Positions 3,589 to 6,559 of a stretch of DNA of 10,006 nucleotides are shown one piece after another. Source of the DNA: a bacterium (GTDB lineage: Bacteria > JACRDZ01 > JAJRWM01); the NCBI GenBank assembly GCA_024276815.1, contig JAJRWM010000034.1, positions 1 through 10,006 of the forward strand, given 5' to 3'. The translations under genes were made by a program, and so were the position numbers. Position 1 is the first letter of the stretch. Each line of letters begins with the position of its first letter. Below the pieces are notes generated by a model. That model made no database searches. It was given only the letters and a program-made list of their open reading frames with translations, and was not told the origin of the DNA.

Positions 3589-4685
3589 GCTTGTCCACCC
3601 TTTAGCTTTGACAGTATCTCCTGATAGCTTTTTAACACCGCGGCTTTATTTTCGGAATTAATGATAACTGCCTGCTCAGCGATCTTAGCACAGTAACCGC
3701 ATTGTTCACAATCCCTTTGTCGGCAGTCAAGATCGGCAAAAAAATCAAAATAGCCGTCCAGTTTTTCATTATCTATGAATATCTCAACAGAGGGGAAATC
3801 TTCGCCCGGCCCCTTAACGACGGCTCCGGCTCCATGAGGAAAGTTAATAACATCGGCGGTATTGGAACCGCTGGAACGGGAGGCATAGGCTTTGGCCACC
3901 TTAATCAGCCAATCGGTGGACTTGGTACGGCCGGCGATCTTGAACTTGTCGACGCCGACGGCTTCCAGGTAGCGCAGGTCTTAGGGGCGCACCCAGGGGG
4001 AGCGGATAATTTCCACGGGATTGCTTAACCGGACACTACTGCAGTTTAATACCGGGTAATCTATTTTCACATTCTGAAACTCGTAACCACACTGGGATGA
4101 ATGAGAGTTGATATTGCTGTGATAGCGGCGGAACGGACAGCCAAACAGACAGGCGTTATTGACTATTACCTGCAAGTCAACCTTCAGGGCCTTGCGGTAT
4201 TTCCGCAGGATGGCGGGCTGGCGGCTCAGACTTTGAATTATGGTAATTTCATCAACGCCCAGCTTTTCATAAAACCGGGCCATGTGAAGATTATCGATAT
4301 GGCAGAAAATGGAAGCGGAAACTTTAAGAGCGGGGAAACGGCGTTTAATCAGTTCGATCAGGTAAGGCACCGCGACGCTTACCATATCGGTTCCGATATC
4401 AACCAGCCAGCCTAAAAGTTCAAACAACCGCCGCTGATACAATTCCTGATACTCGCGATTGCCCAGACAGGCGCTGTTCAGCACGTAGTTGAACTCAGCG
4501 CCGGCCTGATGTATCAAGTCAACCTGCCGGGCGACTTCCTCGCGGCTTACTTGCGGAAGCAGGTAGGAAGGACGCCCCCCGCCCACGACATCTTCCTTGA
4601 GCTTGCCGTAGTACGTGGTTATTGGCAGACCGGCCAGTTCCCGGTAGAGTCTTTCATCCCAATTGGTTGACATGGTTAAACGCAT
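3585..4685 (-). pseudogene. U32-family (UbiU/UbiV-like) iron-sulfur protein gene with one in-frame TAA
   Basis: A single frame of 367 codons encodes a U32 peptidase-superfamily protein but is cut by TAA at 3981-3983 (codon 235). The first part (234 aa, 3981-4685) holds the TIM-barrel-like core with NACLFGCP (C179, C183), C199 and C215, the spacing expected for the 4Fe-4S ligands of this superfamily. The part after the stop, to 3585, continues without shift (DLRYLEAVGVDKFKIAGR) and ends in a second cysteine cluster, C321, C326, C329, C332 (CX4CX2CX2C). The stop falls in SPWVRP-stop-DLRY, where relatives as I recall them read PED, so one base change GAA to TAA explains it. The ATG at 4685 has AAGGGA upstream. 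Members include the anaerobic hydroxylases UbiU/UbiV; here a quinone role is inferred from neighbours. It could be a true nonsense mutation, a read error, or rarely read through. Restart at GTG 3899 has no ribosome site. Confidence 0.8.
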
Positions 4686-4796: not shown

Positions 4797-4805
4797 AAGA
4801 TAAAA
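4797..4805. repeat. Left copy of 9-bp target-site duplication
   Basis: AAGATAAAA directly abuts the left terminal inverted repeat of the MITE-like element and is identical to the sequence abutting its right end. This is the direct footprint of transpositional insertion. Confidence 0.78.
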
Positions 4806-4995
4806 TTGGAGTTCCCCCAAAAAAGCGAGTTGGTTAACTATAACTATATGTAAGATAGGTTTTTCAAGGTAAGTGGAACAGGAAAAACCTTGGGAGACAC
4901 CCTTTTTACATATCTATCGACGAGCTGTTTTTTAGCGAAGTCTAAAAGGGATTTCTCCCAAACCCTTCTTTCCCAAAATTTTCGGGGAACTCCAA
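4806..4995. mobile_element. 190-bp MITE-like element with 17-bp terminal inverted repeats
   Basis: The left end TTGGAGTTCCCCCAAAA (4806-4822) and the right end read in reverse, TTGGAGTTCCCCGAAAA (4995-4979), match at 16 of 17 bases. The ends are flanked directly by identical 9-bp sequences (AAGATAAAA). Inside are further inverted repeats: AGGTTTTTC/GAAAAACCT (4857-4865, 4882-4890), enclosed by ATATGTAA/TTACATAT (4846-4853, 4906-4913), and TGGGAGACACCCTTTT paired with AAAAGGGATTTCTCCCA (4891-4906, 4944-4960, one bulge). It encodes no transposase and is too small to do so. It is therefore a non-autonomous element, presumably moved by a transposase elsewhere in the genome that recognises the same ends. 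A 9-bp duplication occurs in several IS families (IS4- or IS256-like, for example), so the parent cannot be named from this alone. It lies between the two divergent promoters. Confidence 0.8.
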
Positions 4996-5004
4996 AAGAT
5001 AAAA
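4996..5004. repeat. Right copy of 9-bp target-site duplication
   Basis: AAGATAAAA directly follows the right terminal inverted repeat and matches the left copy at all nine bases. The lack of decay suggests a fairly recent insertion, although nine bases give little resolution. Confidence 0.78.
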
Positions 5005-5008
5005 AAGA

Positions 5009-5036
5009 TTCCGAATCCTTTATAGTGTGGTATAAT
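5009..5036 (+). promoter_or_regulatory. Predicted extended -10 promoter of the ubiD operon
   Basis: TGGTATAAT at 5028-5036 is a perfect extended -10 (TGnTATAAT). A poor -35 candidate, TTCCGA, lies at 5009-5014 with a 16-base spacer, which is acceptable for an extended -10 promoter. The start would be near 5043, leaving about 55 bases of leader before ubiD, including AGGGGA at 5088-5093. The promoter begins only a few bases right of the MITE target duplication, so the insertion replaced whatever lay directly upstream. Confidence 0.6.
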
Positions 5037-5098: not shown

Positions 5099-6559
5099 AT
5101 GGCATATAAAGATTTGATGGATTTTATCGCGACCCTGGAAAAAAACAACCAGTTAGTCCGCATAAAAAAAGAAGTTGATTTTTTCCTGGAGATCGCCGAA
5201 ATCAACAACCGCGTAGTGTCCGAATACGGCCCGGCTCTCCTCTTTGAGAACATCAAGGGTTACAAGATGCCGGTCCTGATCAACGCGCTGGGAACGTACG
5301 AGAGACTGGCGCTGGCCTTTGAAGTAAATCATATCGAGGATATCGCCAACAACATCAGGGAGGTTTTCAAAGGCGAACCGCCGGCTACTTTCTGGCAGAA
5401 GATCAAAAAACTGTCCCAGTTGCGCAAGTTCGCCCACATCGCTCCCAGGATGGTCTCCGGCGCCCCCTGCCAGGAAGTCGTCAACACGGAAAATCCCAGT
5501 CTGGCCGCGATTCCGGTCCTGCATTTCTGGCCCGGAGACGGGGGCCGTTTTATAACCCTGCCGATGGTCTTCACCAAAAACCCCGAGACCGGTTCCCGCA
5601 ACTGCGGGATGTACCGGCTACAGGTGCATGACAAGCGCACGCTGGGTATGCACTGGCATATCCACAAACACGCCGCTCACCATTACCGGCTGGCTGAAGA
5701 AAAGAATCAGCCGCTGGAGGTAGCCATCGCGATTGGCGGCGACCCGGCGACTTATTTCGCCTCCGGCGCGCCCCTGCCCGATGAAGTGGATGAAATGCTG
5801 CTGGCTGGCTTCTTAAGGAACAAGCCGGTGGAACTGGTTAAATGTAAAACCGTGGACCTGGAAGTCCCGGCCAACGCCGATATTATTCTCGAGGGAGTAT
5901 GCCTTCCCGGGGAAAAACATTTAGAGGGTCCTTTTGGCGACCACACCGGCTACTATTCTCCGGCGGAGGATTATCCGGTGTTTCATCTAAAGGCCATCAC
6001 GATGCGTAAGAACCCGGTTTACGTGACGACCATGACCGGTAAGCCGCCCCGCGAGGATTGCTATATGGGGCAGGCCCTGGTAAAAATTTTCCGCCCTTTG
6101 CTGCAGATGACCCTGCCGGAAATTACCGACATGAATTTGCCGCAGGAGGGGGTTTTTCACAACATCGCCATTGTCGCCATCGACAAGCACTACCCGGGGC
6201 ACGCGCGGAAAGTCATGAGCGCTTTATGGGGACTGGGGCAAATGATGTTTACCAAGATCATCATCGTGGTAGACAAGGAAGTTAACGTCCATGATTTGAG
6301 CGAAGTTATCTGGCGGGTCGGCAACAGCATTGATCCCAAAAACGACGTCATGTTTACCGAAGGGCCGGTTGACGCTCTGGACCATGCCAGCCGCACCCCG
6401 ATCATTGGCAGCAAAATGGGGATTGACGCCACCCGGAAGTGGCCCGAGGAAGGTCATACCCGGAAGTGGCCGGATCTGGCTGAAATGGATAAGGGCACGA
6501 TCAGGATGGTCACCAGGCAATGGTCTGAATATGGAATTGATTTAAAGAAGAAAATTTAA
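5099..6559 (+). CDS. UbiD-family prenylated-FMN decarboxylase (MqnL/UbiD-like)
   Basis: This 486-aa protein is a full-length UbiD-type decarboxylase, using prenylated FMN made by a UbiX partner that is not in this window. Visible motifs: RNCGMYRLQ (167-175) with N168 and R173 in the cofactor-binding strand, HWHIHKHAAHHY (185-196) with H191, DEVDEMLLAGFLR (228-240) with a conserved Glu, and EGPFGDHTGYYSP (276-288) with E276 and D281. These give the E(D)-R-E catalytic set, so the enzyme looks intact. With the adjacent UbiA-like and nearby UbiE-like genes, the best role is decarboxylation of a polyprenyl-dihydroxynaphthoate (futalosine-pathway MqnL) or of a polyprenyl-hydroxybenzoate. The first is favoured in an anaerobe but is inferred. 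The ATG at 5099 is preceded by AGGGGA with good spacing; an ATG at 5095 is out of frame. The next gene starts two bases after the stop. Confidence 0.92.
   Translation: MAYKDLMDFIATLEKNNQLVRIKKEVDFFLEIAEINNRVVSEYGPALLFENIKGYKMPVLINALGTYERLALAFEVNHIEDIANNIREVFKGEPPATFWQKIKKLSQLRKFAHIAPRMVSGAPCQEVVNTENPSLAAIPVLHFWPGDGGRFITLPMVFTKNPETGSRNCGMYRLQVHDKRTLGMHWHIHKHAAHHYRLAEEKNQPLEVAIAIGGDPATYFASGAPLPDEVDEMLLAGFLRNKPVELVKCKTVDLEVPANADIILEGVCLPGEKHLEGPFGDHTGYYSPAEDYPVFHLKAITMRKNPVYVTTMTGKPPREDCYMGQALVKIFRPLLQMTLPEITDMNLPQEGVFHNIAIVAIDKHYPGHARKVMSALWGLGQMMFTKIIIVVDKEVNVHDLSEVIWRVGNSIDPKNDVMFTEGPVDALDHASRTPIIGSKMGIDATRKWPEEGHTRKWPDLAEMDKGTIRMVTRQWSEYGIDLKKKI

Follow-up and report, generated by a model that had tools for sequence, protein, structure and literature searches.

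A hairpin unit nested in a bacterial MITE points to a possible spread of very small DNA hairpins through insertion into hairpin loops

Among the described systems closest to the locus reported here, the REP sequence combines a hairpin with a foot that is conserved on its 5' side, its Y1 transposase cutting at CT dinucleotides (PMC8266576), and certain REP families are located inside palindromes (PMC3733652). The BOX elements of S. suis have a modular organisation in which two kinds of ends are found around the same boxB modules, so that differing ends surround one inner module (PMC3049150). Whether the smallest bacterial repeats land in loops is still an open question for REP sequences. Here we describe a 190 bp miniature element (MITE), lying in a window of 10,006 nucleotides (the whole stretch of DNA that was analysed), which carries a small REP-like unit at the tip of one of its inner hairpins (Table 1).

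Table 1. Coordinates of the MITE, its nested unit and the neighbouring genes in the window.
Feature	Position	Strand	Basis or remark
MITE	4806..4995	.	190 bp; shortened relative of the 302-bp C194 element plus nested hairpin unit
Left 9-bp target site duplication AAGATAAAA	4797..4805	.	9-mer comparison
Right 9-bp target site duplication AAGATAAAA	4996..5004	.	9-mer comparison
Left terminal inverted repeat TTGGAGTTCCCCCAAAA	4806..4822	+	further TTGGAGTTCCCCC ends elsewhere in the genome
Right terminal inverted repeat (TTGGAGTTCCCCGAAAA read on minus strand)	4979..4995	-	
Inner hairpin AGGTTTTTC / GAAAAACCT of MITE body	4857..4890	.	
Second inner hairpin, nested unit at tip	4890..4961	.	arms 4890-4908 and 4943-4961
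Nested REP-like unit, type V1	4911..4942	+	foot TATCTATC 4911-4918, hairpin GACGAGCTGTTTTTTAGCGAAGTC 4919-4942
U32 peptidase family gene, transcribed divergently to ubiD	3981..4685	-	Pfam
Extended -10 like sequence TGGTATAAT (TGgTATAAT) ahead of ubiD	5028..5036	+	by eye; absent from strict scan
ubiD gene (UbiD_N, UbiD, UbiD_C domains)	5099..6559	+	Pfam

In the terminal inverted repeats of the element, 16 of 17 bases were found to be matched, and identical AAGATAAAA 9-mers directly adjoin these repeats on both sides, as a sequence-only reading of the window had claimed. That reading had also judged a chance origin of the 9-bp match to be very unlikely, and this held when the MITE flanks were sampled under a first-order Markov model, with a 9-base match at exactly both borders having a probability of approximately 2.8e-5 per site. 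AAGATAAAA was the sole 9-mer common to both flanks (1 of 10,640 position pairs). The element folded better than its own shuffles, as RNA or as DNA (z about -3.1 to -3.6), and the ORF list contained no ORF of 80 aa inside it.

The genome of the host comprises 2.39 Mb in 246 contigs (assembly 91% complete), about half of which was read directly. Searching it with the element gave 39 matches of two kinds. The MITE body was common to three further copies (on contigs C194, C200 and C27) with the same TTGGAGTTCCCC termini, whilst the remaining matches were mostly of only ~45 bases (query 98-143), centred on TATCTATCGACGAGCTGNTTTTTAGCGAAGTC. The TTGGAGTTCCCCC ends recurred across the genome, with 21 matches relative to 3 for a reversed control. 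The closest full-length relative was the C194 copy, which is 302 bp long with both ends present; the end of contig C40 and the start of C194 overlap by an identical 141 bases and, if this join is right, the joined copy has CACCAAAA on both flanks, an apparent 8-bp duplication. Relative to the C194 element, an internal stretch of ~140 bp near the right end is missing from the window copy. Judged from sequence, positions 4806-4995 are a genuine MITE which was shortened by an internal deletion, because near-perfect terminal inverted repeats, a 9-bp duplication and relatives in the same genome, one with an apparent 8-bp duplication of its own, come together; the earlier description of the element as MITE-like was thus upheld, also by the existence of further copies. 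No transposase with TTGGAGTTCCCC ends was found: none was seen among the TTGGAGTTCCCCC loci of the 91% complete genome and, in a search for transposases of the DDE_Tnp_1 family, the sole match had CAGGG ends.

Alignment of the window copy with that of C194 also revealed ~33 bases unique to the window copy, placed precisely where the hairpin GGGAGACACCCTTTTTA / TAAAAGGGATTTCTCCC has its tip; the tip of this second inner hairpin in relatives without the unit is CCCTTTTTATAAAAAGGG. The several nested inverted repeats noted previously inside the element include a second, separate REP-like repeat in the loop of a MITE hairpin, which could not be recognised in the sequence-only reading. This unit, type V1, consists of 32 bases, with the 8-nt foot TATCTATC preceding a small hairpin, GACGAGCT(N)AGCGAAGTC. 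A covariance model of V1 identified 35 copies in the host genome and none in the three further members of the phylum that were compared. When public genomes and viral contigs were scanned for the pattern, all matches were single and scattered, near chance. The unit caps at least four stems that are unrelated in sequence, namely TAGGGGG.../...CCCCCTA, GGAAACC.../...GGTTTCC, GGGGGCGG.../...GCCCC and the stem of the window MITE, and three of the stem families, the window's own included, are also found with the same tip lacking the unit (for example TTTTTTTTCGAAAAAAGGG). Variants of V1 (TCTACCG.., GCTTCTTTTTGCG) cross stem families, and the tip therefore has its own history. Flanks taken from the same V1 copy paired at -16.7 kcal/mol, compared to -12.1 and -8.9 kcal/mol for swapped and shuffled flanks respectively, with weak flank pairing at a few copies (L006, L024, L020). 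As the inner stem of V1 is nearly invariant, its pairing is without covariation support.

V1 belongs to a wider family of units in which the foot is followed by other hairpins. In 1.2 Mb the foot occurred 97 times, relative to 34 for the reversed word, and ATATCTATC occurred 51 times relative to 5. Besides that of V1, the stems behind the foot were GTGC/GCAC, ATTC/GAAT, GACG/CGTC, GATAC/GTATC and GATGC/GCATC, and a hairpin followed the foot in 25 of 98 cases compared to 4.6 in shuffles, a strict test which V1 itself fails. When 20 non-V1 units were aligned, stem covariation was strong, at 0.786 compared to 0.22 for shuffles and at most 0.163 for slid controls; the choice of these units by their hairpin, or by close resemblance to a unit with one, inflates the percentage paired but not the change of whole stems. 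Units occurred singly and in tandem (L134, L212, L223, L224), and one unit was found inside the loop of another at L133:7441, with similar arrangements in L139 and L143. A foot followed by TAAAA after a gap of 16-34 nt gave 32 matches in the host genome and 3 in the reversed control, nearly all of the former being recognisable units; the matches in other members of the phylum contained no recognisable units. CT or T follows the units. In total, 35 V1 copies and ~20 other units were counted.

V1 was also carried by elements with CAGGG ends, and at one of these a 10-bp duplication, GTATGTTGGT, is perfect. The right end of these sister elements, GAGTTTGCCTGTTGCCCTG, is also an end of an insertion sequence on contig C184 with an ISAs1-type transposase (PF13808 and PF01609). 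This is a single IS with CAGGG ends (L236:487-1655), whose transposase is probably broken, and may be inactive, because PF13808 and PF01609 are split over two open stretches. The window element is not an ISAs1-type sister, because it has TTGGAG ends.

Taken together, the occurrence of one unit at the tips of unrelated hairpins suggests that very small DNA hairpins propagate in this genome through insertion into hairpin loops. The reading that we favour, with a probability of about 65%, is that the MITE is moved in trans by a DDE transposase, which would act on the TTGGAGTTCCCC ends, and that the units are separate, non-autonomous parasites landing in hairpin loops. Units would enter the single-stranded loops of hairpins as single-stranded DNA, like REP sequences, and the Y1/HUH transposase acting on them would since have been lost or be missing from the assembly. 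Loop insertion would yield nested repeats, both of a unit in a MITE hairpin and of a unit in another unit. A parsimony argument favours insertion of the unit over its loss, since four unrelated stems share it at the tip; for the route of movement we infer either single-strand HUH transposition or recombination. No intact Y1/RAYT gene was found in the 91% complete genome, only a 58-residue IS200-like remnant. We tentatively suggest, and consider it a doubtful step beyond the favoured reading, that the units, 26-32 nt long with the 8-nt foot and an exchangeable hairpin, are ultra-small mobile DNA of a new class, which would insert without target duplication into hairpin loops, each other's included, via a putative single-strand transposase. 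Pairs of matching hairpins that differ in the presence of the unit, together with several independent stems and unit-in-unit nesting, offer a natural test of loop-landing spread, and the genome also shows how transposons whose ends are unrelated can share a single passenger repeat.

At the level of the MITE, the duplication at 4797 and 4996 might be a chance match, with the element an old palindrome rather than a recent insertion. The A-rich flanks would ease such a match, but its probability of ~3e-5 at this exact position, and the independent duplications of 8 bp and 10 bp seen at related or sister elements, make this very improbable. For the units, an account that we rate as quite possible, though below even odds, is that the elements are BOX-like mosaics in which short T-run/A-run matches allow hairpin modules to be swapped through recombination or template switching, with no enzyme dedicated to the 32-nt unit. 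Ends do mix freely (L139:9680-9943 combines a TTGGAG end with a GCTCTG end, and L138 and L144 are alike), and the crossing of stem families by unit variants and the two kinds of ends of S. suis BOX elements point the same way. However, the stretch held in common is often just the 32-nt unit and a few flanking bases, which is short for recombination, and the tandem and unit-in-loop units look freshly inserted.

The unrelated stems, ends and duplication lengths of the carriers (TTGGAG, 8-9 bp; CAGGG, 10 bp) also speak against a descent of all of the hairpins from one unit-bearing ancestor, with the copies without a unit having lost the tip by deletion. Such loss occurs at one copy at least, where half a unit remains (L223:885-935), and palindromic tips are prone to deletion, but with one family tied to an ISAs1 transposase, and with the foot alone common to units with other stems, we consider common descent unlikely. 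Selection could instead keep the unit as a functional RNA or a protein-binding site, for example at the tip of a regulatory or guide RNA, and this would suit the strong conservation of both strands of V1 (TATCTATC; GA/GAA internal loop) in copies with differing stems. Against this stand the Rfam search, in which the element matched no family and a single, chance-level match was obtained elsewhere in locus L006, the absence of an orientation preference towards neighbouring genes, the absence of a TnpB-type Zn-ribbon gene from the genome and the confinement of the unit to one genome of the phylum, and we think a selected function of this kind quite improbable.

Several specific roles were considered and set aside. 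A link to TnpB and omega RNA was rejected as the genome had no PF07282 match, and a riboswitch or terminator role as no gene-orientation bias was seen. A CRISPR array on contig C48 (L128:7780-9065) has a 36-nt repeat, GTTGTGGATTGGCCGCAGGTTGAGATAGAATACAGT, and 19 spacers of 29-31 nt; a CRISPR link was rejected as none of its spacers matched the repeats in the DNA read. Near position 1311 of L078, a TTGGAGTTTCCCC match adjoins a sequence that resembles a cobalamin riboswitch (by eye only).

Short repeat regions were common in this genome (n=158, median 150 bp, with at least 3 matches), making up ~2.3% of the DNA read, in which no multi-copy long IS was found. A hairpin-bearing repeat family, AGGTCGTAGACCTG..., unrelated to the window element, is present as tandem copies at L099:3934-4338 (C15) and also occurs in L094, L136 and L139. 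An abundant repeat of ~120-150 bp with the inner palindrome GTCATTCCCGTGCCAACGGGAATCCACTGGATTCC was observed at L110:15901-16049, L125:7249-7373, L087:2290-2444, L098:6916-7065, L131:1039-1160, L133:10620-10770 and L143:5143-5268, and a gene region on contig C14 (L098:8610-9632) contains tandem repeats of ~144 bp. TAGAGC-ended elements showed no target duplication at the copies inspected; a sequence resembling the TAGAGC end of this other repeat family closely follows a truncated IS200-like transposase (58 aa) at L224:1257-1500 (C210). Four short contigs that resembled palindromic repeats were rejected as an artefact of the overlap search, being fully masked with N.

The sequence-only reading had placed the element between the two promoters of a divergent gene block and close to the ubiD promoter, and proposed that it may have altered the regulation of quinone genes. 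The element does lie between the divergent U32 and ubiD genes, with ubiA next after ubiD on the plus strand, but the ubiD promoter was seen by eye only and a strict promoter scan returned a promoter-like site on the U32 side alone. The end of the right duplication lies 23 bp before the extended -10 sequence. A search for the empty site in the phylum's three further genomes revealed no U32 gene next to ubiD.

In comparison with known systems, the window element resembles bacterial MITEs such as RUP, NEMIS and Nezha, which are non-coding and 70-300 bp long, have terminal inverted repeats, target duplication and intergenic copies and are predicted to give a folded transcript; it differs from them in that no autonomous partner was found for its TTGGAG ends and in that its inner hairpin hosts a second repeat. 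ISAs1-family insertion sequences and their non-autonomous derivatives are represented by the CAGGG-ended sister elements, which contain this nested unit as well and have one end in common with an ISAs1-type transposase gene. With streptococcal BOX elements the likeness is of organisation only, both being modular with an inner hairpin module that is absent, single or repeated, although in the present genome the module is carried by several unrelated stems, at the tip of the hairpin. By analogy, the closest model for the units is the REP sequence, with its REPIN arrangements mobilised by RAYT (TnpA-REP): both are intergenic hairpins of 20-40 nt with a conserved unpaired 5' foot, found as singles and in clusters. 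The units differ from REP sequences in their foot (TATCTATC rather than GTAG/GTGG or CGTC), in stems of 3-5 bp with loops of 8-11 nt, in their unit-in-unit nesting and in that no intact RAYT was found.
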